In this document: positions 1-22,233 of the stretch, piece by piece
Numbering within the stretch: the stretch's first letter is position 1
Layout of the letters: each line of letters begins with the position of its first letter
From: an uncultured Pseudomonadota bacterium
Lineage (GTDB): Bacteria; Myxococcota_A; UBA796; UBA9615
Assembly: GCA_937891735.1 (NCBI GenBank)
Contig: CALAGR010000127.1
Span: forward strand, 1-34,056
Length of the DNA stretch: 34,056 nucleotides
Reading direction: 5' to 3'
Position numbers and translations under genes: made by a program
Notes under the pieces: model-generated
Database searches by the model: none
The model's input: only the letters and a program-made list of their open reading frames with translations
What the model was told of the DNA's origin: nothing

Positions 1-164
1 GGTCCCAGCAGCGCAGCGTCCTGGCGGGCCCCGCCCTGCCCCCAGGCCGCGCACGCCCCGACGCCGAACGCCGCCAGGAGCAGCCCCGATCCGACGTCCG
101 CGCCGCACGCGATCATCGCCGCAGTGCTCCAGATGGCGCCCAACGGGGTCAGCCACCACGTCAT
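1..164 (-). CDS. hydrophobic protein, N-terminal fragment cut by window edge
   Basis: This is the first 54 codons of a minus-strand gene that continues past the left edge. The ATG at 164-162 overlaps the TGA of the upstream glycosyltransferase gene (163-161) as ATGA, the usual sign of translational coupling. The visible peptide starts MTWWLTPLGAIWSTA and is rich in Ala, Gly, Leu and Val, compatible with one or two membrane segments. No family can be recognised from so little sequence. As the last visible gene of the 6004-to-1 operon it may be another envelope or membrane protein. The start is well supported by the overlap and continuous frame; the function is unknown. Confidence 0.6.
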   Translation of the reverse strand, partial: MTWWLTPLGAIWSTAAMIACGADVGSGLLLAAFGVGACAAWGQGGARQDAALLG

Positions 165-1156
165 CGTCGGGTGCCCGTGCCCAGCGGCGCGCTCAGCGCG
201 GCGGCCCCGATCACCGCGGACAGCGCGTAGTGCACCCCGGCGGAGTAGACCGCGAACCGCAGCCCGTCCTCGCGCCGCACATACCTCAGGAAGCCGCCCG
301 TGCTGGCCAGCCAGACCGCGTCGCAGGCCAGCGCCGGCAGAAGGAGCGGCGGGAACAGCAGGCTCCCGGCGTGGCTGGCCACTCCCCCCAGGGCCGCGAC
401 CGCCGCGGCGCCGGAGCGGGAGTTCGCCTGGCCCGACGAGAACCCGCGCTGCTCCGGGGCGAGGCGCACCCACATCCTGGTGCGGCCCCAGTAGTTGCGG
501 GCCACCGTCGACAACCCCGGGAAGTGGTGCCGGCCCGACAGCCGGTCATCGAAGCGGATCACGATCCCCTGGGCGCGGAGCCTGCCGGACAGCTCGTAGT
601 CCTCGACGTTGCCGCCGTCGTACCCCTCATCGAAGCCTCCGGAGGCGTGAAAGGCGCCCCGTCGGACCGCGGCCAGGGCCCCCTGCAGGTGGGTGCTGTG
701 CCCGCTCCGGGCGCCCGTGATCTCCCAGCAGTGCCAGGTCCACCGCGCCTTGTAGCGGGCGAACGCGCCGGGGTTGGCGGGCTCTGCGGTGTAGCGCCCG
801 GTGGCGGCCTGGACCGAGGGATCTGCGAAGAGCGCCGCGGCCCCGGCCACCAGCCCGGGCTCGGGGATCACGTCCGAGTCGAGAAACAGCAGCACCTCCG
901 CCGCGCTGTGTTCGGCCCCGGTGTTGCGCGCCGCCGCCGCTCCCCGGTTGGTGGCGTGCCGCACGACCCGCGCACCTGCGGCCTCCGCGATCTGCCCGGT
1001 GGTGTCGGGGGAGGCGTCGTCGACCACGAGGATCTCGAAGGCCGGCGCCCCGACCTGACGCTCCAGCCCCTGCAGGCAGGCGGGCAGGTGTCGCGCCGCC
1101 CGCCAGGCGGGGATGATCACCGACACGGCGGGAGGCTGACTGGTCCGAGGCGGCAT
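161..1156 (-). CDS. GT2-family glycosyltransferase with C-terminal membrane segments
   Basis: The 331-residue protein begins with a GT-A fold of family GT2: VSVIIPAW near residue 11, the nucleotide-binding VVDDAS at about 44-49, and FLDSD at about 91-95, whose DSD is the expected metal-binding DxD motif. A later GGFDEGYDGGNVEDYELS segment matches the acceptor/catalytic-base ED region. The last about 100 residues contain hydrophobic stretches that would anchor it in the inner membrane. It should transfer a sugar from a nucleotide-sugar at the cytoplasmic face; donor and acceptor cannot be read. It starts at ATG 1156, 39 bases after the upstream radical SAM gene, and its stop overlaps the next gene. 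An extracellular polysaccharide, LPS or glycolipid role is possible. Confidence 0.85.
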   Translation of the reverse strand: MPPRTSQPPAVSVIIPAWRAARHLPACLQGLERQVGAPAFEILVVDDASPDTTGQIAEAAGARVVRHATNRGAAAARNTGAEHSAAEVLLFLDSDVIPEPGLVAGAAALFADPSVQAATGRYTAEPANPGAFARYKARWTWHCWEITGARSGHSTHLQGALAAVRRGAFHASGGFDEGYDGGNVEDYELSGRLRAQGIVIRFDDRLSGRHHFPGLSTVARNYWGRTRMWVRLAPEQRGFSSGQANSRSGAAAVAALGGVASHAGSLLFPPLLLPALACDAVWLASTGGFLRYVRREDGLRFAVYSAGVHYALSAVIGAAALSAPLGTGTRR

Positions 1157-1195
1157 CGGCGCATTCTGCCGCTCGTGGGGCCGCGCGCCCAGCAG

Positions 1196-2653
1196 CTACA
1201 TGGTTCCGGGGTCGAGCGTGCCGCCGCGATTCGTCCAGTAGTTCGTAGTCAGCGGGATCAGGCGAGCCATGTCGCGCAGGTCGATCTGCCCGGTCCGCAC
1301 GAGGCCTGCGGCGTAGTGCGCCTTGAAGATCAGCTCGAAACCGACGTTCGGGGGCAGCTTGATCGCCTGACGGACCACCGGGCGCAGCCACGGGAAGGTC
1401 ACGAGCACCGGCAGGAGCTTCTGGAAGTTGCACAGCTCCTCCTTCCGGTCGAGCTTCAATGGCGTGTCGATGAAGTAGCTGTACTGGAAGTCCTTGTCGC
1501 CGCCGTCCGCCCCCAGGTAGCCGTTCTCGATGCTCCAGGACTCCAGCGTGGTGCCCGGGTAGGGCTGGCAGATCGACGCCCACGCGTGGTCCGAGCCCAT
1601 GGCGATGTTCAGGTCCGCCGTCTGGAACGCCATGTCCACCGTCTCGCCCGGGATCCCGACGATGTTGAAGGTGTACAGCTTGATGCCGGCCTCCTTGATC
1701 AGCCGGCCCGCGATCCGCATGCCTTCGTTGTCCAGGCGCCCCTTCTTGAGCACGCCCACCCGCAGTTCCTCCACGCCGCTCTCGAGGCCCACCTTGATGA
1801 GCTTGCAGTTCGCCTCCTTGAGGGACTGCACGACCTCCTTGGTGACGAGGTCGGGCCGCAGCAGGCAGGAGAACGGCAGCCCGATCTCGGCGGCGTACCG
1901 CGTCAGGAACTCCTTGCCCCACTTGCGGTAGTTGAGGACGAAGATGTCGTCGGCGAAGCCGATCTGACGGACCCAGGGGTAGTTCGCCTGGATCTCCTTG
2001 ATCTCCTCGATCATGGAGGCCACGGGCTTCTGGCGCACGTACTTGCCCTTGCCGCGGTACATCTCCTGCATCGTGACGTTGAAGCAGAACGTGCACTTGT
2101 AGGGGCAGCCCCGGGCGCTCATCACCGACACCGTGCGTCGCTTGCGCACGAAGTCGTAGTGGTCGTAGACCGAGCGGTCCGGGAAGGGCCACTGCTCCGG
2201 CTCCTGCTCCAGGACCCGCAGCGGGTTGTAGATCGGCGTGCCGTCGTCGTCCCGCCAGCCCAGGTTGGGGATCCCGCTGGGATCGGTGCCGTCCCGCAGG
2301 GCCCGCGCCAGCTCCACCAGGCAGTCCTCGCCCTCGCCGACGCAGATGTAGTCCAGGCAGTCGTTCTCTTCGAGCACCCGCGGATAGAAGGTGGGATGGG
2401 GGCCCCCCATCACCACGGTGGTGCTCCACCGGGCCTTGACCTGCCGGGCGAGGGCGAGCTGCCACACGTGCTGGCCGGTCGTCGCCGACAGGCACAGCAC
2501 ATCGGGCTGCTGCCGCCGCAGCGCCTTGAGCATGTCGCGCTCGGCGGGATCGATCAGGACATGGGTGGTGTGGCCGTCCGCCTTGAGCACCGCGGACAGG
2601 CACATCGTGGCGAGGTTGGGGATCGGGTCCTTCTGGACGAAGACGAAGTGCAC
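1196..2653 (-). CDS. cobalamin-binding-type radical SAM protein (B12-rSAM)
   Basis: This 485-residue protein has an N-terminal Rossmann-like region of the B12-binding type (about 1-130, with VVMGGPHPTFYP and VGEGED signatures) followed by a radical SAM core. The RGCPYKCTFC segment gives the CX3CX2C cluster ligands at about C183, C187 and C190. LESGVEELR and IPGE follow, with a late PYPGTTLES segment common in this class. The classical DxHxxG cobalamin motif is absent, as in many class B members. Such enzymes methylate unactivated carbon or phosphorus, or rearrange or cyclise substrates. The start is GTG 2653, only 4 bases after the stop of the SPASM gene. Neighbouring glycosyltransferases suggest a lipid or glycan substrate, but this is inference. 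Confidence 0.88.
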   Translation of the reverse strand: MHFVFVQKDPIPNLATMCLSAVLKADGHTTHVLIDPAERDMLKALRRQQPDVLCLSATTGQHVWQLALARQVKARWSTTVVMGGPHPTFYPRVLEENDCLDYICVGEGEDCLVELARALRDGTDPSGIPNLGWRDDDGTPIYNPLRVLEQEPEQWPFPDRSVYDHYDFVRKRRTVSVMSARGCPYKCTFCFNVTMQEMYRGKGKYVRQKPVASMIEEIKEIQANYPWVRQIGFADDIFVLNYRKWGKEFLTRYAAEIGLPFSCLLRPDLVTKEVVQSLKEANCKLIKVGLESGVEELRVGVLKKGRLDNEGMRIAGRLIKEAGIKLYTFNIVGIPGETVDMAFQTADLNIAMGSDHAWASICQPYPGTTLESWSIENGYLGADGGDKDFQYSYFIDTPLKLDRKEELCNFQKLLPVLVTFPWLRPVVRQAIKLPPNVGFELIFKAHYAAGLVRTGQIDLRDMARLIPLTTNYWTNRGGTLDPGTM

Positions 2654-2657
2654 GCGC

Positions 2658-3689
2658 TCAGTCCCACAACAGCCGGCCGCGGGCCAGGTTCGACGCTGCG
2701 CGCATCGCCTGTCGCGGCCGCAGGCCGAGCAGCAGGTTCAACTCCTGGGGACCCTTGAACCAGCACGCCTGGCATCCGGACCGGTCGGGCAGGGCCCCGA
2801 AGGCGCGCTCCCAGCCGACGGTGGGGCCGTGGCGATCCGCGGCCACGTACTCCTCCTCGGAGCAGCAGGGCACCACGTACCCCTCGGGCGTCACCTCGCA
2901 GAACAGGCGTCCAGCCCAGCACTTCAGGCCGAAGGGCTTGCCGGGCCAGGTCTGACGGATCGCCTCGAGGTAGTCGGCGCTGCACGACACCGGTCGACCC
3001 GCCATCTTCTCGCCGATCAGCCAGTCCACGGCCTCCGCCATCGCCTGCTGGCGCGGCACCAGGCCGTCGGCGATCTCCGCTCCGCCCAGGCGCGTCTCGA
3101 TGACCGGCTGGAACGCCACGCCCGCGCCCAGCTGCTCGCCGAGCTGGAGCAGATCATCCATCATCGACCGGTTGCGCTCGTTGAGCACGCACAGCAGGCA
3201 CACCGCGACGTCGTGGCTGCGCAGCAGCTCCAGCCCCCGGATCGCCGCCTCGTAGCTCCCCTGTCGCCCGACCACCCGGTCGTGTTCGACGCGATCCCCG
3301 TGGATCGAGCAGATCACCAGATCCAGATCGCGCAGCTCGTCGATCCGCTCGCTGATGCGGGTGCCGTTGGTCACCATCGACCGGTGGAAGCCCAGGCGCC
3401 GTCCCGCGGCGATGTATTCGCCCAGGCTCTTGACCAGGGTCGGCTCGCCGCCGTTGAAGACCCACCACCGCGTGCCCATGCGGGCGAAGGACTCCATCAT
3501 GCCCACCACCTGCTCGGAGGCCATGTGCCCCGACTCGGCGTGGATCCGCGTGCAGAAGCCGCACTCCACGTTGCAGTGGTAGGTGAGCAGGTGGGTCACC
3601 TTGAGCGGCACGGAGCGGCCCACTCGCGCGGAGGCCAGAGAACCGACGATCTGGAGTGGGCGCGCCGGGAGCGGCATGCCGGGCAGCAT
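2658..3689 (-). CDS. radical SAM protein with SPASM-like C-terminus
   Basis: The 343-residue protein carries the radical SAM triad in YHCNVECGFC (C39, C43, C46) and the SAM-contacting NGGEP at about 79-83. The C-terminal third has further cysteines (about C257, C264, C275, C276, C306, C309) in a pattern typical of SPASM or twitch domains that hold auxiliary Fe-S clusters. Family members modify peptides, sugars or small molecules; no precursor peptide gene is visible here. I chose ATG 3689 because a longer in-frame reading to 4274 lies wholly inside the GtrB-like gene in another frame. A second Met at 3677 is an alternative start. It lies 32 bases downstream of the glycosyltransferase gene and 4 bases upstream of the B12-rSAM gene. 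Confidence 0.85.
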   Translation of the reverse strand: MLPGMPLPARPLQIVGSLASARVGRSVPLKVTHLLTYHCNVECGFCTRIHAESGHMASEQVVGMMESFARMGTRWWVFNGGEPTLVKSLGEYIAAGRRLGFHRSMVTNGTRISERIDELRDLDLVICSIHGDRVEHDRVVGRQGSYEAAIRGLELLRSHDVAVCLLCVLNERNRSMMDDLLQLGEQLGAGVAFQPVIETRLGGAEIADGLVPRQQAMAEAVDWLIGEKMAGRPVSCSADYLEAIRQTWPGKPFGLKCWAGRLFCEVTPEGYVVPCCSEEEYVAADRHGPTVGWERAFGALPDRSGCQACWFKGPQELNLLLGLRPRQAMRAASNLARGRLLWD

Positions 3690-3721
3690 AGCCACCAAAC
3701 CCGGGGGTCGCGGCTGCTCCC

Positions 3722-4738
3722 TCAGCGGGCGTCGGCGCCCGTTTCTGACCGCGCCGGGTCGCCCTCGATGGACTCGCCCAGCACGAAGGTGCGCGTCCGG
3801 CTCTGGCCGTCCACCGACGCCCGCAGACGCTCCAGGGTGCTCAGGGCCAGGCACAGCAGCCCGAAGCCCGCGAGCCCCAGGGTGCTCAGGCCGAGCTCCC
3901 ACAGCTGTCCGGTGCGCTGTTGGACCACGTGCACCAGCAGGATCGCGCCCGCCCCCGTGCCCAGGAGCAGGGCGAGCAGCCCCACCGGGGTCAGGAGCGG
4001 CGCCACGGTCTTCAGGATCCGGGGGAGCAGCACGGCGCCCACGAGGTCGTTGAGCCCCTGCAGGTACCGAAACGCCCCGTAGCGGGACCGGCCAAAAGCC
4101 CGCCGGGCGTGTCGGACCCGCACCTCGCCCACCCGGAACCCGCAGCGCCACGCCTGCACGGGGATGAAGCGGTGCATGCCTTCGGCGAGGACCAGCCGGG
4201 CTGCCACCTCCCTGCGCATGGCCTTGAAGCCGCAGTTCACGTCGTGCACCCGCAGCCCCGAGAACGCGGAGCACAGGCCGTTGAAGACGCGCGACACGGC
4301 CACCTTCAGGGCGGCGTCCTGCCGCTCGATGCGCCAGGCCTGGGCCAGATCGAGCTCGTCCCGGAGCACGGGTCCGAGCAGCACCGGCAGTTCCTCGGGC
4401 AGGTCCTGCAGATCCGCGTCCATCAGCACGACGTACCGGCCCCGCGCCGCCTGGATCCCACAGGCCAGGGCCGCGGACTTGCCCTGGTGACCGGCCAGGA
4501 TCCGGCCCCGCACCCGGGGCTCCTGCGCGCTGAGGGCGCGGATCACCGCGGCCGTGTCGTCGGTGCTGCCGTCGTCGATGACGATCAGCTCCCAGCTCAG
4601 CCCCTGTGCGTTGAGCGCCTCGCGCACCCGGAGGGCGAGCACGTCCAGGGAGCTCGCCTCGTTCCGCGCGGGCACGAGCACGGATACGTCCGGTCCATCG
4701 GTCCGCCCGCCGGCCAGGACGCGGGGGGGCGAGGCCAC
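3722..4738 (-). CDS. GtrB/DPM1-like GT2 glycosyltransferase (polyprenyl-phosphate type)
   Basis: The 338-residue protein has the layout of polyprenyl-phosphate glycosyltransferases: VSVLVPARNEASS near residue 18, IDDGSTDDT at about 54-62, and LMDADLQDLPEE at about 105-116 (catalytic DxD). Two hydrophobic segments near 245-270 and 278-302 follow. DPM1/GtrB enzymes load a sugar from UDP or GDP onto undecaprenyl or dolichyl phosphate on the cytoplasmic face for later transfer outside. The GTG start at 4738 lies one base after the DUF2752 stop. Its neighbours suggest it supplies an activated sugar for the same envelope product. Annotation as a general GT2 protein is the safer fallback. Confidence 0.85.
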   Translation of the reverse strand: MASPPRVLAGGRTDGPDVSVLVPARNEASSLDVLALRVREALNAQGLSWELIVIDDGSTDDTAAVIRALSAQEPRVRGRILAGHQGKSAALACGIQAARGRYVVLMDADLQDLPEELPVLLGPVLRDELDLAQAWRIERQDAALKVAVSRVFNGLCSAFSGLRVHDVNCGFKAMRREVAARLVLAEGMHRFIPVQAWRCGFRVGEVRVRHARRAFGRSRYGAFRYLQGLNDLVGAVLLPRILKTVAPLLTPVGLLALLLGTGAGAILLVHVVQQRTGQLWELGLSTLGLAGFGLLCLALSTLERLRASVDGQSRTRTFVLGESIEGDPARSETGADAR

Positions 4739-4739
4739 C

Positions 4740-5153
4740 TCAGACCCTCCCGGCGGTGAACACGAACGCCCAGTTCGCCGCCACGCCCAGCACGAGCCCG
4801 ATGCGCATGCCGCGCCGCTCGGCGGCCGAGGTGTCCAGGCGCAATGCAGGTCCGCCCGCCATGCGCACCAGCAGGTAGGCCGTGCCCACCACCGTGATGG
4901 CGCACAGCGCCGCGCCGGCGGGGTTCCAGGCCAGCGCCTGCCGCAGCTCTCCGTGCACCAGCGACACCCAGGACCGAGTCATCCCGCACGTCAGGCAGGG
5001 CAGCCCCGTCAGGTGCTTGAACGTGCACAGGGGCGGCAGCCGGCCGAACGGGAAGAAGCGTGCGAGGCACAGCAGCAGCACGCCGGACAGGGTGAGCCCG
5101 GACGAGACGAACGGCTCCAGCCGCCGCGCCGAGGGGTCCAGCCGCAGCAGCAT
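4740..5153 (-). CDS. DUF2752 family membrane protein
   Basis: The 137-residue protein carries the DUF2752 signature: a Cys in CTFKHLTG followed by GLPCLTCGMTRS, then WNPAG. It has about three membrane segments (approximately residues 12-30, 75-98 and 115-132). Its role is unknown across the family. I chose ATG 5153, which overlaps the TGA of the upstream gene as TGATG; a longer reading to 5237 would lie inside that upstream gene. The stop is one base before the GtrB-like gene. The paired cysteines could bind metal or take part in thiol chemistry, but no biochemical role is established. Confidence 0.82.
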   Translation of the reverse strand: MLLRLDPSARRLEPFVSSGLTLSGVLLLCLARFFPFGRLPPLCTFKHLTGLPCLTCGMTRSWVSLVHGELRQALAWNPAGAALCAITVVGTAYLLVRMAGGPALRLDTSAAERRGMRIGLVLGVAANWAFVFTAGRV

Positions 5154-6004
5154 CAGGCGCCTGCCATCGCCCCGAGGAAGCCCACCGCGAACGCCGCCAC
5201 GAACCCGCAGCAGCAGCAGCCCAGGGCCGGCCCCCAAGCCGCCACCGCGCCCCTCCAGCCGTCGGTCTCATGCACCGCCGCGAGGCCGACGGACTGCACG
5301 CCGAGCAGCCAGGGCAGCGCGACCCAGTTCACGAGCGGGACGATCTCCCAGAACCGGATCCCGCCCGCGTACAGGCAGGCCTTCAAGGTGGTCTCCAGGG
5401 GGTACTTCGCGCCCCCCACCAGGGACAGGATCGCGTGCTGGACCACCCCGAAGGTCATCGTCATGAGGATCCAGATCGCCGGCCCGAACAGCAGGTTCAG
5501 TCCGATGCCCTTGACGGCCTTGGCGACGCTGGGCTGAAGGCCCTCGCGCAGCTCGTCCAGCGCGTCGGCGGGGATCTGGCTGCCGAACTGGCCGAGCAGC
5601 GCGATGAACGAGTCCCCGAACGCCGCGAGCATCAGCTGGCCGTAGATGGCACCCATGGCCACCGCCGGCACGAGCACGAGGGCCTGGAACATCGCGGCCT
5701 CCGAGACGGTGCCGCCGTTGCCGAGCGAGGCGAAGAACTGGCCCGGGCGCGCAGACACCTCCAGCACCGTCTGCCAGGCGGCGGGCAGGATCCCCAGCTC
5801 GTTCCTGCGTTCCCACGGGTTGCTCCCGATCTGGACCCGCTGCTCCCGGATGCACGTGGCGCAGATCTGCTGATCCCCATTGAGCGTGACGCACTCGGGG
5901 CAGGCGAAGGTGCCGCAGTGATCGCAGGTGGCCACCGCGCCCCGTTCGGGATGCACCGCGCAGAAGGCGCCCGTAGGGGAGTAGTCGATGGTCTGAGCAG
6001 TCAC
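5153..6004 (-). CDS. zinc-finger (B-box-like) plus YIP1-domain membrane protein
   Basis: The 283-residue protein starts with a compact Cys/His cluster (C15, H18, C27, C30, C35, C38, C48, C51), consistent with two bound zinc ions in a B-box-like fold. The remainder has about four or five hydrophobic segments in the arrangement of YIP1-family proteins. The last membrane segment contains four consecutive cysteines (GCCCCGF), which is unusual. The function of bacterial zinc-finger/YIP1 proteins is not established. It is the first gene of the minus-strand operon, starting at GTG 6004 with a GGAG sequence about 9 bases upstream. The gene downstream overlaps its stop by one base. Confidence 0.78.
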   Translation of the reverse strand: MTAQTIDYSPTGAFCAVHPERGAVATCDHCGTFACPECVTLNGDQQICATCIREQRVQIGSNPWERRNELGILPAAWQTVLEVSARPGQFFASLGNGGTVSEAAMFQALVLVPAVAMGAIYGQLMLAAFGDSFIALLGQFGSQIPADALDELREGLQPSVAKAVKGIGLNLLFGPAIWILMTMTFGVVQHAILSLVGGAKYPLETTLKACLYAGGIRFWEIVPLVNWVALPWLLGVQSVGLAAVHETDGWRGAVAAWGPALGCCCCGFVAAFAVGFLGAMAGA

Positions 6005-6111
6005 TGGGCACGTCTCCGGAGGAGGCCGCGGCGCGCGGCGCCATCAAGGGTAGCGATCTGGCACCGCAGGGCGCCAGCGATCGACCTGGACCGCTGCTAA
6101 CCTGCCGCGCA

Positions 6112-7527
6112 ATGAGGATCCTCCTGATCAATCCCGCGATGAACCTCGAGACCCTTGGCAAGTTCAAGGGGCTCCTGGAACCCATGCCCGTCATCGGGCT
6201 CGCCTACATCGCGGCCGTGCTCGAGCAGGAGGGCCACCGCGTACAGGCGATCGATCAGTTCACCTACGGGATGTCCGTCGCGGAGATGATGGAGCAGGTC
6301 AAGGCCTTCCGGCCGGACGTGCTCGGCATCGGCATGCTGACGCCGTCCGCGCCGGTGTCGCTGCACATCTCCAACGAGACCAAGGCGGCCCTGCCGGACT
6401 GCAAGGTCGTCGTGGGCAACGTGCACGCCGACATCTTCTACAAGGAGATCCTGACCACCTCGGCGGTGGACTTCGTGGTGCACGGGGAGGGCGAGTACAC
6501 CATCAAGGAGCTGGTCCAGGCCTTCGAGCGCGGCCAGACGGACTACGCCCGGATCCAGGGCATCAGCTACATCGACGAGGCCACCGGCGAGGTCGTCAAG
6601 ACCGCGGCCCGCCCCGTGATCGAGGACCTGGACGCGCTGCCCTACCCGGCGTGGCACCTGTTCCCCTACACGCGCTACGGCCTGCTGCCCTTCGCCGACG
6701 TGGCCCGGCCGGTGCTGTCGATGACCGGCAGCCGCGGCTGTCCGTACCGCTGCGAGTTCTGCTCGCTGCTGTACACCGGCTCGAACTACCGCAAGCGCGA
6801 CCCCATCAAGATCGTGGACGAGTACGAGTACCTGCACGAGCGCTACGGCGTGAAGCAGATCGGCTTCGTCGATCCGATCTTCCCGCTCAACAAGAAGATC
6901 CTGTTCCAGTTCTGCGAGGAACTGATGCGGCGGGGCCTGCACAAGAAGCTCGTGTGGCTGTCCGAGACCCGGGTGGACCGGCTGGATCGCGAGTCCCTTC
7001 GCATCATGCGGGCCTCGGGCTGCCGCCGGATCCTGCTGGGGGTGGAGTCCGGCGTCGATCTGCTGCTCGAGAACGTCAACAAGACCTTCACGACCGAGAC
7101 CACGCGCCGCGCCGTCCGGCTGATGCGCGAGGAGAAGATCGAGTCCGTGGGTCTCTTCATGATCGGCCTGCCCGGCGAGACGGAGGAGATGACCCGTCAG
7201 ACCATCGACTTCGCCAAGTCCCTCGACCTGGACTTCGCGAAGTTCGCGATCACCGTCCCGTTCCCGGGCAGCCAGATGTTCGAGGACCTGCGGCGCGAGG
7301 GACGCCTGGACCGGGACGACTGGGAGAACTGGACCACGTTCCAGCCCGATCCCGCGAAGATGGTGTTCGTGCCCCGGGACACGTCCCCGGAGTTCCTGAT
7401 CGAGATGCAGCGGGTGGCTCTTCGGGAGTTCTTCCTGCGCCCGAAGATGATCTACCGGCACCTGTTCGAGATCCGGACCATCAACGCGCGCCAGCTCTGG
7501 CACGGCGTGAAGGGCATGTTCCTGTAG
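6112..7527 (+). CDS. cobalamin-binding-type radical SAM protein (B12-rSAM)
   Basis: This 471-residue protein opens with a B12-binding-like domain (MRILLINPAM, then HGEGEYT near 124-130) and continues with a radical SAM core whose ligands sit in SRGCPYRCEFC (C210, C214, C217). LGVESGVD, IGLPGETEE and VPFPGSQMFEDL follow in the order usual for the class. No DxHxxG motif is present. The gene is transcribed away from the envelope-glycan operon, separated by 107 bases, and is probably functionally linked to it. No Shine-Dalgarno sequence precedes the ATG; instead TAACCT lies 8 bases upstream, compatible with a leaderless transcript. The reaction and substrate are unknown. Confidence 0.88.
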   Translation: MRILLINPAMNLETLGKFKGLLEPMPVIGLAYIAAVLEQEGHRVQAIDQFTYGMSVAEMMEQVKAFRPDVLGIGMLTPSAPVSLHISNETKAALPDCKVVVGNVHADIFYKEILTTSAVDFVVHGEGEYTIKELVQAFERGQTDYARIQGISYIDEATGEVVKTAARPVIEDLDALPYPAWHLFPYTRYGLLPFADVARPVLSMTGSRGCPYRCEFCSLLYTGSNYRKRDPIKIVDEYEYLHERYGVKQIGFVDPIFPLNKKILFQFCEELMRRGLHKKLVWLSETRVDRLDRESLRIMRASGCRRILLGVESGVDLLLENVNKTFTTETTRRAVRLMREEKIESVGLFMIGLPGETEEMTRQTIDFAKSLDLDFAKFAITVPFPGSQMFEDLRREGRLDRDDWENWTTFQPDPAKMVFVPRDTSPEFLIEMQRVALREFFLRPKMIYRHLFEIRTINARQLWHGVKGMFL

Positions 7528-7566: not shown

Positions 7567-9207
7567 GTGGCTCCGGATCACCGCGTGTACCTGACCCTCC
7601 CCGCGCCGGCACGAGCCCTGTTCGTCGCCGCCTGCTTCGTCTGCCTGGGGGGCTGCTCCGCGGGCGTGGCGACCGTCGTGGCGCAGGTGCAGGACCCCGG
7701 CGGCGGGGTGCTCCTGAGCTTTGAGACGGAGGGGCGCAACACCTTCACCACGACGGGCCAGAGCTGCGAGGCCGGCAAGGACGGCGGCTGCAGCCTGGTT
7801 CTGCCCGCCGCCGACCTGATCCCGGGCTGGAACCTGCTCGCCATTCAGACCGAGCGCCGCACCGGGCAGCCTCTGGTGGCCCGCTTCTTCGTGCCCGACG
7901 CGTTCTTCGGCCGGGAGTGCACCGTCAAGCCCCGGGGCCTGACCGGCGATCCCGACGAGCTGAGCTTCGACGTGGAGTGCACCTTCGCCGAGGGCTTCAA
8001 GGGGGTCATCGACGACGTCCCGATGACCGGCGGCAAGGCGACCGTGTCGGCCATGCGGTGCCTGGGGGACCTGGCGTCCCTGGACGTGGATCTGGAGCGG
8101 CCCCTGCTGCAGGGCATGGTGCCGCTGGACGTGGTGGGACGTCGCGGACGGCTGCGCCGCGGGATCCCCGTCGCCGTGCCCGCGCCGGTGGTGCAGGTGA
8201 GCCTGCAGGGGTGGGCGAGCCCGTGGTTCGAGGAGAGCATGCCGCTGCAGGTCGAGGCGGAGCCCGACTCCACGGTCACGGTGAACGGCAGGCAGGAGAC
8301 CCCCTCGGGGGACGGCGGCGTGGTCACCGTGCAGATCCCGATCACCATCGGGGCCAACGAGGTCGTGGTCGAGGTCAACAAGGCCGGCCACGCCACCGCG
8401 CGCCACGCGCTCGCCATCGAAGGGCGGTATCCGAGCACGCCGCTGTTCCTCGATCAGCAGTACGAGTCGCCGCTGACCACGGACCGGGAGCTGCTGCCGC
8501 TGTCCGGTCGCACCCACCCGGACGCGAAGCTGTACCTCAGCGGCCGCCCGGTGGACCACCACAAGGGACGGTTTGAGCTCGACGCGTACCTCGAGGAGGG
8601 CAAGAACGACGTGCAGCTGCTCGCCGTGGTGCAAGCGCAGCAGGGGCGCCGCGCGAGGCCCCTGACCCGCGTGGACTTCGAGGTCCATCGCACCCTCGCC
8701 GTGCCCCCCACCTTCGCACCGTCGGCCGACGTCGCGGGGCCGGACGCGGGGCCGCCCCTGGTGGAGGTCGCCCGCGACCCCTGGGCCCACGTCGGCTCGA
8801 ACATCAGCTTTCCGATGCGCATCGAGGGGATCGCCGAGAACCTGTCGCTCGCGGGGGAGTGCAGCGCGCGCATCGAGGGCCTGGCCTGCTCGGAGCGGGT
8901 CGGCGGGCCGGTGATGCTCGGCTGGTCGGTGGTGGAAGGCTGGGTCTGCATCGGCGAGGAGATCCCCGTCGTGGTCCAGGCCGCGGTCTGCCCCCGCGCG
9001 GTGGTGGGTGACGACGTGCAGATCCAGGGAGTGATCCGCGGCGCCCTCGGGGGCCGGCACCACGGAATGACCACGGACCGGCCGAGTATCGACGCCAGCG
9101 CCGCCCATCGCCTGCCCGCGACCCGGCTGCTGCCGCCCGAGCGGCGTGACCGGTTCCAGCCGGACCTGCTCGTGGAGAAGAAGCGCTCCGGGGGGCGGCG
9201 TCGATGA
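7567..9207 (+). CDS. predicted lipoprotein with Ig-like domains
   Basis: The 546-residue protein has a signal peptide ending in CLGGC, a good lipobox (Leu-Gly-Gly-Cys). Mature sequence is rich in beta-strand-type segments. Two central stretches resemble bacterial Ig-like or glucodextranase-B-like folds, for example STVTVNGRQETPSGDGG followed by IGANEVVVEVNKAGH, and SGRTHPDAKLYLSGRPVD followed by EEGKNDVQLLAVV. No catalytic motif is visible. The GTG at 7567 is the first start; GTG 7585 gives a shorter, more conventional signal peptide and is equally possible. Its TGA overlaps the ATG of the next gene, so the two products are probably made together. A surface binding or sensing role beside the kinase-like protein is inferred. 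Confidence 0.72.
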   Translation: MAPDHRVYLTLPAPARALFVAACFVCLGGCSAGVATVVAQVQDPGGGVLLSFETEGRNTFTTTGQSCEAGKDGGCSLVLPAADLIPGWNLLAIQTERRTGQPLVARFFVPDAFFGRECTVKPRGLTGDPDELSFDVECTFAEGFKGVIDDVPMTGGKATVSAMRCLGDLASLDVDLERPLLQGMVPLDVVGRRGRLRRGIPVAVPAPVVQVSLQGWASPWFEESMPLQVEAEPDSTVTVNGRQETPSGDGGVVTVQIPITIGANEVVVEVNKAGHATARHALAIEGRYPSTPLFLDQQYESPLTTDRELLPLSGRTHPDAKLYLSGRPVDHHKGRFELDAYLEEGKNDVQLLAVVQAQQGRRARPLTRVDFEVHRTLAVPPTFAPSADVAGPDAGPPLVEVARDPWAHVGSNISFPMRIEGIAENLSLAGECSARIEGLACSERVGGPVMLGWSVVEGWVCIGEEIPVVVQAAVCPRAVVGDDVQIQGVIRGALGGRHHGMTTDRPSIDASAAHRLPATRLLPPERRDRFQPDLLVEKKRSGGRRR

Positions 9208-10910
9208 ACCTCACGGTGCCGGGCTACGCAGTCGAGCGGCCGCTGGGTGAAGGGCGCACCGGCGAGGTCTTCCTCGCGCTGCGGGAGAGCGACGCCGTCC
9301 AGGTCGCGCTGCGCAGGGTCTCACCCGCGCTGGCCAGCAAGCCCGGCGTCCGGACCGCCTTGAGGGCCTTGAAGGCGGAGTGCGGCGTGCTGCGGGCGCC
9401 GACCCTGGTGCCGATCCTCGATGTGTTCGAGCACCAGCAGGACGTCTTCGTGGTCGAGCAGTTCGTCGAAGGCGTGGCCCTGTCCGACCGGCTCGCCCTC
9501 GGCGCGCTCCCCCCGGAAGACGTGCACGCCCTGGCCATGGACCTGATGGACGCGCTGTCCGACCTGCACCGGCAGGGGGTGGTGCACGGCGACGTGCGGC
9601 CGTCCAACATCCTGATGACCTCCCGGGGCGCACGCCTCGTGGGGATCGGGGTCGCCGCCCGCACCCGGCGCCGGGACCACGCCGCGGGCTTCCTGCTGCG
9701 GGACCCGTACGACGCACCCGAGATGGACCAGGGCGTCGTGAGCCCCCTGACCGACATCTATGCCCTGGGCGCCGTGTTGATGCACGCCGTCACGGGCGAC
9801 GAGGGCCCGTACGACTTCTTCGCCGACGCCGACGCAGTCGTGGACGAGCTGCTCGAGGCGATCTCGGCCGCCCCCGAGAGTCGCCCCACGACCGTGGACG
9901 GCTTGCGCCTGGCGTTCATCGACGCCGAGAAGACCCGGGGCGCGGTGCCCGCCAGGGAGCAGCCGCTCCCTTCGCCCAAGGCGCCGGCCGAGGCGGACGT
10001 GCCGGCCCCCGCGGCCCAGGCCGAGTCGCCCCGCCCCGCCGCCCCGCCGCGCACCACACCTCTCCCGCCGAAGCCGACGAAGGCCGTGTCGGCCCGCAAG
10101 GACGGCACCGTCGCGCCCGGGGAGCGCTTCGAGGAACTCCTGGACCGGGCCCGCCCGATGATCCCCGCCGCCGGGGCCGCCGTGGGGCTGCTGGTGCTCG
10201 CGGTGCTGGTGCTGCTCCTGCTGCCCGAACGACCCGACGGCATGATCCTGGTGGAGCCGGCCCCGGGGCTGCTGGGAGATCCGGCCGGCCAGCGCGACGA
10301 ACGGCCGGGCTTCCAGGCTTCGCTGTCCCCGTTCTGGCTCGATCGGGTGGAGGTGACGGCCGCCGCGTACCGGACCTGCGTGGACGCGGGGCTCTGCACC
10401 CCGCCGGGGTTGGACTGGCCCGCCGCCGACCGCCTGCCCATGACCGGCGTGACCTGGCTCCAGGCCCAGGCGTACTGCGTATCCAGGGACAAGCGGCTTC
10501 CCACCGAGAACGAGTGGGAGACCGCGGCCCGGCTGCCCGGGCGGTATCCCTGGGGCGACGCGGAGCCCGGGTGCCAGCTCGCGCGCTACGGCGTCCTGCC
10601 GGGCGGGCCCTGCGCCTCGGCGGATGGGGGCTCTGGAGCCGCTCCCGTGCCCGATCTGGACGCGCTGGAGGAGGGCGCCTTCGCGGACCTCGCGGGCAAC
10701 GTCTGGGAGCTCGTGGACGCGGATCACCAGCCCCAGCGCGGGCCCGGCTCCGGCGAGGCCACGGTCGCGGGCCAGAGCACGCTGCGGGTGATCAAGGGCG
10801 GGGCCTGGAGCGCGGGGCCCGAGCACCTGCGGCCGGCGGCGCGCATCGGCGTGCGCATCGACTACGCGGCGGAGGACGTCGGCTTCCGTTGCGGCCGCTC
10901 CGAGGAGTAG
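9204..10910 (+). CDS. membrane pseudokinase fused to SUMF1/FGE-like domain
   Basis: The 568-residue protein has an N-terminal protein-kinase fold (about 7-245), a Pro/Ala-rich linker, one membrane segment (about 320-340) and a C-terminal FGE-sulfatase (SUMF1) domain (about 347-565, with RLPTENEWETAAR, GNVWELV, GGAWS and GFRCG). Kinase landmarks are degenerate: the Gly loop GEGRTGEV is kept, the VAIK lysine is Arg37, the HRD motif is HGD (128-130) with Asp kept, and DFG is GIG (147-149), so the metal-binding Asp is lost. APE (171-173) and TDIYALG remain. The SUMF1 domain lacks the paired cysteines that follow GGS in true formylglycine oxidases. Topology places the kinase fold inside and the SUMF1 domain outside. 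It is likely a signalling scaffold rather than an enzyme. Confidence 0.85.
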   Translation: MNLTVPGYAVERPLGEGRTGEVFLALRESDAVQVALRRVSPALASKPGVRTALRALKAECGVLRAPTLVPILDVFEHQQDVFVVEQFVEGVALSDRLALGALPPEDVHALAMDLMDALSDLHRQGVVHGDVRPSNILMTSRGARLVGIGVAARTRRRDHAAGFLLRDPYDAPEMDQGVVSPLTDIYALGAVLMHAVTGDEGPYDFFADADAVVDELLEAISAAPESRPTTVDGLRLAFIDAEKTRGAVPAREQPLPSPKAPAEADVPAPAAQAESPRPAAPPRTTPLPPKPTKAVSARKDGTVAPGERFEELLDRARPMIPAAGAAVGLLVLAVLVLLLLPERPDGMILVEPAPGLLGDPAGQRDERPGFQASLSPFWLDRVEVTAAAYRTCVDAGLCTPPGLDWPAADRLPMTGVTWLQAQAYCVSRDKRLPTENEWETAARLPGRYPWGDAEPGCQLARYGVLPGGPCASADGGSGAAPVPDLDALEEGAFADLAGNVWELVDADHQPQRGPGSGEATVAGQSTLRVIKGGAWSAGPEHLRPAARIGVRIDYAAEDVGFRCGRSEE

Positions 10911-10919
10911 GCCCCGGGA

Positions 10920-12458
10920 TCAGGTGTCGTACCACTCCGGCTTGACCAGGTTGGTGTACGACTGCTCCTTGATGGGGTTGATCCGCTGCTTGACGGCGTC
11001 CCAGGTCACGCCGAGCGCCACCTTGAGCCACCACTGGTACATCTGCCGCTTGTAGCGATTGCCCGAGGACAGGCCCTTGAGCAGCCACTTCGGGTTCACG
11101 AACTGGCGGTTGATGTCGTACAGCGCGCGGCTGATCTCCTCGCGGGTCATGTAGTCGCTGTCCATCATCGGAGTCATCCAGTCGAACTCCGTGAAGTCGT
11201 CCAGGCTGATCCAGCCCTCCTGCATGGCCTCGTCGAACAGGGGCGTGCCCGGGACCGGCGTGATCGGGTGGAACGCCGGGTAGTCCACGTTGAGCTCCTT
11301 GGCCAGCTCGGCCTGGCGGAACATGGACTCGCGGGTCTCGTACTTGGTGCCCACGATGAAGGTGGCCTGCTTGAAGATCTGGGGGTACTTGTCGAGGATC
11401 CGGAAGGTCTCGCGGAGCTGGTCGTTGTTGTAGAAGCCCTTGTTGAACTCCTTGAGGCGCTCGTCCTCGGCCCGCTCCACGCCGATACACAGGTGGCGCA
11501 GCCCGGCCGCCACGAGCTTCTCGAAGATGCCGCGCTTCTCGTCCCGGATGATGCAGTCGCTGCGCATGAACGCGAACCAGGTGATGTCCATACCGGTCCG
11601 CAGGATCTCGTCGGCGAACTGGTCGTTCCACCGCGCGTCGATGTTCCAGGACTCGTCCACCCAGACGTAGCAGCGCTTGTCGTACTTGTAATAGAGCTCC
11701 TGGATCTCCTCGATGGTCTTGCCCACCGACTTCGTGCGCCAGCGCGGCCGCAGGTGGATCAGCCCGTCTTCGTCCTCGTCCCGATGGGCCATCTGCGTCC
11801 ACCAGACACAGAAGCTGCACGACGCGGTGCAGCCGCGGCTGTGGTGGATCGTGCTCCCGCCGGGCGAGAACGACAGCTTGCTGGTGCCGTACAGGTGCAT
11901 CGGCATGAGGTCGTAGGCGGGCATGGCGAGGGAGTCCAGGTCCTCGATCAGGTGCCGCGGCGCCGTCTTGATGAGCTCGGCGTCCGGGCCGTCCCCCTCG
12001 CGGTACACGATGCCGGGGACCTGGGACAGGTCCGGCTTGTCCTGTCCGAGTTCCTCGAGCAGCGAAACCAGCGTGGCCTCGCCCTCGGCGCGCACGACGA
12101 AGTCGATGGGGTGTTCGCGCATGTACTTGTCGTACAGGTTGGTGAAGTGGGCGCCCCCTACGAGCCGCTTGGCCCGGGGGATCACGTCCGCCGCCATCTC
12201 CACCACCCGCATGGCCTCGTGGGCGTACAGGGCGTGGTTCTCGCCGATGCAGAGCACGTCAGGGTCCTCGTCCCGCATCGTCTGCTCGAGGGACTGCCAC
12301 CCCATCTTCAGGGGCATGCAGTCGTACACGCTGACCTCGTGACCAGCCTTTCGGGCGGCCGCCGCGAGGTAGGCCAGCGACTGCGGCACGAGGTAGTTGT
12401 CGCCCTCACTGACGAAGGGCCAGTAGTAGCGCGGGCTGAACACGAACATCACGCGCAT
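10920..12458 (-). CDS. cobalamin-binding-type radical SAM protein (B12-rSAM)
   Basis: The 512-residue protein has a B12-binding-like N-terminus (MRVMFVFSPRYYWPF; VGGAHFTNLYD; AEGEATL) and a radical SAM core with ligands in SRGCTASCSFC (C210, C214, C217). The TPVPGTPLFDEAMQEG segment matches the other two B12-type proteins in this window. No DxHxxG motif is seen. The last about 70 residues are basic and aromatic and match no domain I recognise. The ATG at 12458 has GAGGAG 8 bases upstream. It follows a SAM methyltransferase gene by 41 bases and may be the last gene of the yebC-ruvCAB series. It converges on the pseudokinase gene with 9 bases between stops. The substrate is unknown. Confidence 0.87.
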   Translation of the reverse strand: MRVMFVFSPRYYWPFVSEGDNYLVPQSLAYLAAAARKAGHEVSVYDCMPLKMGWQSLEQTMRDEDPDVLCIGENHALYAHEAMRVVEMAADVIPRAKRLVGGAHFTNLYDKYMREHPIDFVVRAEGEATLVSLLEELGQDKPDLSQVPGIVYREGDGPDAELIKTAPRHLIEDLDSLAMPAYDLMPMHLYGTSKLSFSPGGSTIHHSRGCTASCSFCVWWTQMAHRDEDEDGLIHLRPRWRTKSVGKTIEEIQELYYKYDKRCYVWVDESWNIDARWNDQFADEILRTGMDITWFAFMRSDCIIRDEKRGIFEKLVAAGLRHLCIGVERAEDERLKEFNKGFYNNDQLRETFRILDKYPQIFKQATFIVGTKYETRESMFRQAELAKELNVDYPAFHPITPVPGTPLFDEAMQEGWISLDDFTEFDWMTPMMDSDYMTREEISRALYDINRQFVNPKWLLKGLSSGNRYKRQMYQWWLKVALGVTWDAVKQRINPIKEQSYTNLVKPEWYDT

Positions 12459-18420: not shown

Positions 18421-18447
18421 GGCTACTTCGGCTACTTCGGCTTCTTC
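18421..18447. repeat. 9-bp tandem repeat at convergent gene ends
   Basis: Three near-identical 9-base units (GGCTACTTC, GGCTACTTC, GGCTTCTTC) lie between the Cys-rich protein gene and the end of the diguanylate cyclase gene. On the minus strand they encode the Lys/Pro-rich tail and two in-frame TAG stops 9 bases apart. Unit loss or gain would move the stop by three codons. Confidence 0.8.
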
Positions 18448-19502
18448 GGGTCGCCCTCGTGCCGCAGCTCGTATTCGGCCTGCAGCTCGGGGTCGGGCGG
18501 GATGCGGTCCCGGGTCGCGGCGTTGGACTCCAGGGGCGCCATCGCCAGGCGGACCTGGTCGCGCCCGCCGGACTTGGCGGCGTACAGCGCCCGGTCGGCC
18601 CGCTCGATCCACTCGGGGATGGTCTCGTCCCGGCCGATGGTGGCGACGCCGACGCTGACCGTCACGGTGTATCCGGGCTCCAGGCTCGCCGAGAAGTCCC
18701 GCTCGCGGACCGCCACGCGGATCCGCTCACCGATGCGCTGGGCGACCCGCTGGGGAGCGCCGGGCAGGATCACGCAGAACTCCTCCCCGCCGTAGCGCAC
18801 CGCGATGTCCGCGCCCCGGATGCAGGAGCGGACCGCCTCGGCCACCGCGTAGAGCACGCCGTCGCCCTGCACGTGCCCGAAGGTGTCGTTGACCCGCTTG
18901 AAGCGGTCGATGTCCAGCAGCGCGATGGACAGGGCCACCCGGTTCCGTCCGTGGCCCTGTACGAGCCCAGGCAGTCGGTCGGTGATGTACCGGCGGCTGT
19001 ACAGCCCGGTGAGGGCGTCGCGCTGGGCCGCCTCCATCTCCTTCTGCATGCCGCTCTGGAAGCGGATGTCGTCCGAGTCCATGAGCTTGAAGCGCATCTC
19101 GACGTCGCCGATCCAGACCTTGTCGCCGTCCTTCAGAGCGACGGGCTCCCTGACGGCGACGTTGCTGACCTGGGTGCCGTTCGTGGAGCCGAGATCCTCG
19201 ACGAACACCCGCAGCTCGCCGTCGTCCGCGTTCATTGTGAAGCGGGCGTGGCGGCGGGACACGGAGGGGTCGTTCAGGGGGAACTCGCAGGTCTCCGAGC
19301 GCCCCACCACGGCCATCACCCGATCCTCGGGGAAGGCGTACAGGGTGCCGAAGTCGGCGCCGCCGACCACCTGGAGCGCCGGGCGAACGCGCCCCCGCTC
19401 GGCGGTGATCAGGGCCTCCAACATCCCCCTGTCCGTGACCAGGGTTCGGGGCACCGTCTTGGCGTCTCCCAGGGGGTCCAGCTTGAAGCCCGGATCGGTC
19501 AT
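18432..19502 (-). CDS. FHA-GGDEF diguanylate cyclase
   Basis: The 356-residue protein makes cyclic di-GMP from two GTP. An FHA domain (about 45-140) shows VVGRSE, SVSRRHARF and GSTNGT, the phosphothreonine-binding residues. A GGDEF domain follows (about 162-330) with DALTGLYSRRY, DIDRFKRVND and the active-site GGEEF at 238-242. RGAD at 229-232 is a product-inhibition I-site in the right position. No membrane segment is present. The FHA domain suggests control by binding a phosphorylated protein. ATG 19502 is used; AGGAGG lies 13 bases upstream, rather far. The tail ends in Lys/Pro with tandem TAG codons. The gene converges on the PilZ pair. Confidence 0.93.
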   Translation of the reverse strand: MTDPGFKLDPLGDAKTVPRTLVTDRGMLEALITAERGRVRPALQVVGGADFGTLYAFPEDRVMAVVGRSETCEFPLNDPSVSRRHARFTMNADDGELRVFVEDLGSTNGTQVSNVAVREPVALKDGDKVWIGDVEMRFKLMDSDDIRFQSGMQKEMEAAQRDALTGLYSRRYITDRLPGLVQGHGRNRVALSIALLDIDRFKRVNDTFGHVQGDGVLYAVAEAVRSCIRGADIAVRYGGEEFCVILPGAPQRVAQRIGERIRVAVRERDFSASLEPGYTVTVSVGVATIGRDETIPEWIERADRALYAAKSGGRDQVRLAMAPLESNAATRDRIPPDPELQAEYELRHEGDPKKPK

Positions 19503-19581
19503 GTGAACTCTGCGGCCTCCTCGCACACCTATCGGAGTGGCGGGCGAGGACTTGAGCGCAGCCGACCTGCAGCGCAGCGAA

Positions 19582-22233
<2,652 letters not shown>

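Follow-up and report, generated by a model that had tools for sequence, protein, structure and literature searches.

A conserved membrane pseudokinase joined to a SUMF1-like domain and co-inherited with a probable Ig-like lipoprotein in an uncultured Myxococcota_A bacterium

Two overlapping genes

The stretch of DNA considered here (the window) covers positions 1 to 34,056 of contig CALAGR010000127.1 (GenBank assembly GCA_937891735.1), from an uncultured Pseudomonadota bacterium placed by GTDB in Myxococcota_A (UBA796; UBA9615). Between positions 7567 and 10910 it carries two overlapping genes, which encode a lipoprotein with probable immunoglobulin (Ig)-like domains and a protein that joins a pseudokinase, a single transmembrane helix and a domain of the formylglycine-generating enzyme (FGE)/SUMF1 type. 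Both genes, along with the substitutions that mark the pseudokinase, recur in a sister species. The coordinates, strand, start codons and four-base overlap given in an initial annotation of this DNA proved exact. The features are as follows.

7567..9207, + strand: lipoprotein gene, starting with GTG; the product (546 aa) has a signal peptide, an N-terminal region, two probable Ig-like domains and a putative OB-like C-terminus
8212..8694, + strand: the two tandem probable Ig-like domains (about residues 216-290 and 291-376), from sub-cut-off Pfam matches and a profile match
8749..9111, + strand: putative C-terminal OB-like domain (residues about 395-515), part of the same profile match
9204..9207, + strand: ATGA stop/start overlap of 4 bp joining both genes (sister species equivalent L065 2083-2086)
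9204..10910, + strand: pseudokinase-transmembrane-SUMF1 protein gene, 568 aa
9225..9941, + strand: pseudokinase domain, residues 8-246, about 20 residues short between alphaF and alphaH (alphaG region)
9246..9263, + strand: glycine-rich loop GEGRTG, intact
9312..9314, + strand: Arg (R37) at the position of the beta3 Lys of VAIK, located by alignment to intact kinases
9585..9608, + strand: catalytic-loop motif HGDVRPSN, with Asp130 and Asn135 kept and Arg in place of the catalytic-loop Lys
9642..9650, + strand: GIG (G147-I148-G149) in place of DFG
10167..10223, + strand: single predicted transmembrane helix, residues 322-340, mean hydropathy 2.9
10236..10892, + strand: FGE/SUMF1-like domain, residues 345-563, without the FGE cysteine pair; six other cysteines are conserved in the orthologue

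A degenerate kinase domain fixed in two species

Residues 8-200 of the 568-aa protein match the Pfam Pkinase family (9.3e-24). Alignment to intact kinases bore out the motifs as initially read, namely a retained glycine loop and catalytic Asp, an Arg at the VAIK Lys position and a GIG where DFG would stand. It also shows that H128-G129-D130 and N135 are kept, as are the APE Glu and the alphaF Asp, and that Leu occupies the alphaC Glu column. The domain thus has the catalytic Asp and Asn of an active Hanks-type Ser/Thr kinase and lacks the beta3 Lys and the DFG Asp; with a kinase fold by homology and two of the three defining residues (Lys, HRD Asp, DFG Asp) lost, it belongs among the bacterial pseudokinases. 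A further mark is the distance from D184 to R227, which is 43 residues in the window protein and its orthologue alike, compared with a median of 64 and a minimum of 50 in 63 kinases of the same genome. This spacing, from alphaF to alphaH/alphaI, was counted by hand (the automatic alignment came out short in the window protein and misplaced the Arg in the orthologue), and it shows that the substrate-docking alphaG region is absent.

The only orthologue with a readable kinase half comes from the sister species (G001, about 50% identity). It has Arg at the VAIK position, HGDIRPSN in the catalytic loop and GVG for DFG, so that the check on conservation proposed with the initial annotation was passed; an orthologue with intact VAIK and DFG motifs, named beforehand as the counter-evidence to look for, does not occur among those readable, which number one. 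Since the orthologue shares these substitutions, the overlap and the neighbouring genes, the degeneration is fixed and not an error. The three independent motif marks and the alphaG deletion common to one orthologue support a conserved pseudokinase, and the domain probably has no phosphotransfer activity.

Co-inheritance and rate of evolution

The pairing with the lipoprotein, also claimed in the initial annotation, is inherited as a unit. G001, the only other genome of the genus in the set analysed, has both genes (L065 122-2086 and 2083-3684); they keep their order and their 4-bp overlap and likewise follow the upstream radical SAM gene. Two radical SAM genes flank the pair in the window:

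6112..7527, + strand: B12-binding radical SAM gene, 39 bp upstream of the lipoprotein gene and on the same strand in both species, possibly in one operon with it; 91% identical in the sister species
10920..12458, - strand: convergent B12-binding radical SAM gene, downstream; it identifies the corresponding locus in a genome of another genus (G005)

In G005, a third genome of the family, a SUMF1 half 50% identical to that of the window adjoins the same downstream radical SAM gene at a contig edge; the kinase half and the lipoprotein were not found in the assembly searched, where the SUMF1 half ends at that edge. The two flanking radical SAM genes are on separate contigs in G002 and G003, and neither has the pair beside it. 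Among 71 genomes of the class there were no other full-length matches to the lipoprotein, the two extra matches being short and weak (E about 0.005), and a search of viral contigs and plasmids gave no match. When the fusion was looked for in named genomes, only relatives of its SUMF1 domain appeared, in a Nitrospina and a Chloroflexi bin.

Between the two species the pseudokinase protein and the lipoprotein are each about 50% identical, against 91% and 83% for two neighbouring radical SAM genes; for one kinase-SUMF1 orthologue with an intact kinase the figure is 82%. The ratio of nonsynonymous to synonymous change (pN/pS, rough figures because of saturation) is 0.73 for the kinase domain (95% interval 0.60-0.87), 0.53 for the SUMF1 domain, 0.64 for the whole pseudokinase gene and 0.73 for the lipoprotein; the neighbour genes give 0.16 and 0.25. 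The pair is under weak purifying selection, evolving quickly and in step, and the equal divergence together with joint inheritance is consistent with co-evolving partners.

The SUMF1-like domain and membrane topology

The C-terminal domain belongs to the Pfam FGE-sulfatase family (PF03781; 4.8e-33, 115 bits against a curated cut-off of 23.3). As first annotated, it lacks the catalytic cysteines: the segment KGGAWSAGPEHLRPAAR has no Cys at either site of the FGE C-x4-C pair, which sets the domain apart from formylglycine-generating enzymes. Its matches among solved structures are led by SUMF2 (pFGE; E 9.6e-17) and include PorK/GldK chains (E 5.6e-11); the NCBIfam GldK model scores 44 bits against a cut-off of 350, so that the domain does not class as a PorK/GldK of the type IX secretion system (T9SS).

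One membrane helix with the two folds on opposite sides had been proposed from the outset. The helix is indeed single, and the 15 residues before it contain three Lys/Arg compared with one in the 15 after it, a charge bias that points to a kinase inside and a SUMF1 domain outside. The cysteines fit such oxidised, external domains: all six on the SUMF1 side and all nine lipoprotein cysteines other than that of the lipobox are conserved, versus one cysteine at a conserved position in the kinase half. A cytoplasmic kinase fold and an external SUMF1 fold are therefore supported as the predicted arrangement.

Kinases and SUMF1 domains across the genome

The genome yields 124 kinase and 30 SUMF1 matches. 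Degenerate kinases make up seven of the 74 domains in which all three motif columns could be read, the present pseudokinase included, a share that is overstated because the sample favours low-scoring kinases. As bacterial kinomes with 0 to 67% pseudokinases have been reported (PMC12599244), a pseudokinase as such is unremarkable. Five further degenerate kinase domains of this genome (L142, L143, L145, L146 and L150) were noted, several of them with Arg-Pro after the HxD-type motif (HGGVRP, HRGLRP, HRNLRP).

Other kinase-SUMF1 fusions of the genome and class resemble the window protein in the order kinase, helix, SUMF1 (read in L067 and L068) and in SUMF1 domains without the FGE cysteines, but their kinases are intact in all but one other examined. 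The exception (L088 2952-4619, contig C11 of the same genome) is more degenerate, with E for the VAIK Lys, HSG for HRD and TFE for DFG. No lipoprotein partner was seen beside the fusions at L067, L068 or L088. Elsewhere, a tandem run of at least five SUMF1-like genes was noted on an IMG/VR contig (L181 2225-6133).

Across the SUMF1 domains of the genome, about 30 in number, the FGE cysteine pair is absent without exception, also where the fusion partner is an intact kinase; several of these intact-kinase fusions keep the second Cys only. The missing cysteines are hence not a second loss event, and this genome-wide absence removes cysteine loss as a special trait of the fusion. The SUMF1 branch was probably already non-FGE before the kinase lost its motifs. 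The description of the protein as built from two former enzymes is not supported for its SUMF1 half; "double-degenerate" was too strong a term.

The pseudokinase groups with its orthologue on a long branch of its own in the kinase tree (100/100), apart from the clade of most active kinase-SUMF1 fusions. In the SUMF1 tree the window, G001 and G005 domains form one clade (100/99), again outside the main one. Descent from the main kinase-SUMF1 clade of the genome is thus supported by neither tree, and the fusion looks like a separate origin, with the caution that long branches demand.

The lipoprotein and its remote relatives

The lipoprotein has a lipobox (LGGC, with Cys30; LVGC in the orthologue), as expected of bacterial lipoproteins. 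Its Ig-like region matches Pfam families below their cut-offs (Glucodextran_B 1.8e-5, over a sub-region; Cadherin-like 3.8e-4), and for this reason the Ig-like domains are regarded as probable and not certain.

A phylum-wide profile search with the lipoprotein gave weak matches, one of them in genome G206 (L191 4899-8362), where a membrane-anchored protein of 494 aa, which has Ig-like domains and ends in an OB-like part, is encoded just upstream of an intact kinase. We found no established name for this Ig-Ig-OB-like family, which is present in 41 of the 284 phylum genomes sampled. An intact, PknB-type kinase lies in the retrieved flank of the gene at 13 of 20 loci (L194-L213). Profile comparison aligned residues 222-511 of the lipoprotein with the family (probability 97%, E 3e-11); reversed controls gave E 0.03-0.08 and generic Ig-repeat proteins E about 3e-4 over about 80 columns. 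By single domains the match is weaker, with 14-18% probability for the C-terminal part alone. The C-terminal half of the lipoprotein is probably a remote relative of this family.

The two systems share this order of domains and the adjoining kinase, and they differ in that the Ig-Ig-OB-like protein has a membrane-helix anchor (read in G206) and its kinase is intact and of another clade. The kinases beside Ig-Ig-OB-like genes form one clade (100/100), and an approximately unbiased (AU) test rejects a joint clade with the pseudokinase (p-AU 6e-6, with a long-branch caveat), so that descent of the pseudokinase from them was discarded. The partnership of Ig-like protein and kinase therefore looks parallel and not inherited, unless long branches mislead.

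Comparison with known systems

Bacterial pseudokinases are largely uncharacterised, and one that is known to act as a membrane scaffold is EssB/YukC of type VIIb secretion (PMC12599244). Like the window protein it has a cytoplasmic degenerate kinase fold, one helix and an external domain (PMC12599244), but in EssB the glycine loop is absent along with all three motifs, and the protein is part of the Firmicutes type VIIb secretion system (T7SSb), whereas here the external domain is FGE-like. The window annotation covers part of the open reading frames, and among the annotated neighbours there is no T7SS gene, so that the location typical of EssB/YukC is not shared.

For the external half, a close parallel is PorK/GldK of the T9SS, an FGE-like fold without the cysteine pair that serves as a periplasmic docking hub (PMC12421860). 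PorK is itself a lipoprotein that forms a ring with PorN. In the present pair the FGE-like domain is joined to a pseudokinase, and a second, Ig-like protein is the lipoprotein. SUMF2 (pFGE) is an FGE paralogue known to lack the catalytic cysteine; it differs in being an animal endoplasmic-reticulum protein without a kinase fusion. We found no description of the kinase-SUMF1 fusion architecture in the open-access literature. Kinases and FGE domains that have lost activity are both on record; for their combination with an Ig-like lipoprotein no description was found.

A possible trans-envelope scaffold and its alternatives

We give about an even chance to the proposal that the products of both genes form a trans-envelope scaffold or relay without catalytic function, which draws on the kinase motif losses kept in the orthologue, the co-inheritance of the pair and the precedents of EssB/YukC and PorK. 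The kinase fold would lie in the cytoplasm as a docking or conformational relay domain without the usual phosphate transfer, one helix would span the inner membrane, and the periplasmic SUMF1-like domain would be a protein-docking fold and not an FGE. Its most likely ligand would be the co-translated Ig-like lipoprotein, anchored in the opposite (outer) membrane or at the periplasmic leaflet; with E. coli sorting as a guide, the Ser after the lipobox Cys would favour the outer membrane. An event at the lipoprotein could then be relayed to a cytoplasmic partner with no phosphorylation by the pseudokinase protein. Binding between the SUMF1 domain and the lipoprotein, the inward passage of a signal and the identity of any cytoplasmic partner are presumed steps of this scheme. 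We further speculate that such a relay of two non-catalytic enzyme folds, using a type of Ig-like partner found beside intact kinases elsewhere, might amount to a parallel, phosphorylation-free signalling pair, although this extension is on the unlikely side.

Several observations weigh against a scaffold or relay. The kept catalytic Asp/Asn and glycine loop leave room for nucleotide binding or unusual chemistry. Both halves are present in one orthologue only, and the restriction of the pair to one genus, plus the SUMF1 half in another, would fit relaxed constraint, as would its fast evolution. In addition, AlphaFold models built from single sequences or SUMF1-only alignments reached a mean predicted local distance difference test score (pLDDT) of 33 and 38, too low to build on.

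The main variant of the scaffold or relay would be a nucleotide-binding, non-phosphorylating switch, in which Arg37 and Arg132 hold ATP without metal, as has been proposed for DLHK proteins and ULK4, with docking governed by whether nucleotide is bound. Both orthologues have Arg at the beta3 and catalytic-loop positions, and the glycine loop is intact. The DLHK family similarly keeps the catalytic Asp, has lost the beta3 Lys and the DFG Asp and carries a catalytic-loop Arg, and arginine-based, metal-free ATP binding has been proposed for it (PMC12599244). However, that mechanism was derived from models, and DLHK proteins, mostly fused to helicase or nuclease domains, have no membrane helices; the present protein, with its helix at 322-340 and its SUMF1 fusion, differs on both counts. 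We consider the switch fairly unlikely. A different reaction catalysed by the fold, AMPylation or glutamylation, or a weak residual kinase activity seems decidedly unlikely: Asp130 and Asn135 are kept, and SelO and SidJ illustrate that motif loss is compatible with catalysis (PMC12599244), yet the two residues that SidJ repurposes, the beta3 Lys and the DFG Asp, are both gone and the substrate-docking alphaG region is deleted.

Two other explanations concern the pair itself. The lipoprotein and the pseudokinase might share a transcript and act separately, given that a 4-bp overlap speaks for translational coupling and not for contact, and that a radical SAM gene of the same strand lies as close as 39 bp upstream. 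We consider separate action unlikely: the two genes are conserved together and evolve at equal rates, and relatives of the Ig-like lipoprotein elsewhere in the phylum also adjoin kinases. A decaying kinase gene, retained briefly by chance, would account for the quick divergence, the weak constraint (whole-gene pN/pS 0.64) and the narrow distribution; it is very unlikely, since the frames are open, the overlap and gene order are shared, pN/pS lies below 1, the specific substitutions are identical and the cysteines are conserved.

Genomic neighbourhood

The annotated neighbours in the window comprise radical SAM, glycosyltransferase, methyltransferase, LpxC and RuvAB genes. Four radical SAM genes, three of them B12-binding, occur within 12 kb (161-7527 and 10920-12458), and most are syntenic in the sister species. 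There, the downstream radical SAM gene is separated from the methyltransferase by two extra genes (G001 L176 943-4044); one encodes a SUMF1 lipoprotein that has acidic DDDDAT repeats, the other a transporter-like membrane protein of 689 aa. The window also encodes an FHA-GGDEF protein at 18432-19664 (Pfam FHA 1.9e-18, GGDEF 3.9e-42). A role in defence was set aside, since PADLOC models match through the generic kinase domain only.

Significance

The operon of Ig-Ig-OB-like protein and intact kinase is a second, broader lead that emerges from this locus. With respect to the family at large, a SUMF1 domain without cysteines should by default be read as a docking fold. The membrane pseudokinase described here, whose external docking domain can be defined and whose partner is encoded alongside it, offers a tractable system, and it could show whether a kinase fold passes a signal across the membrane without phosphotransfer.

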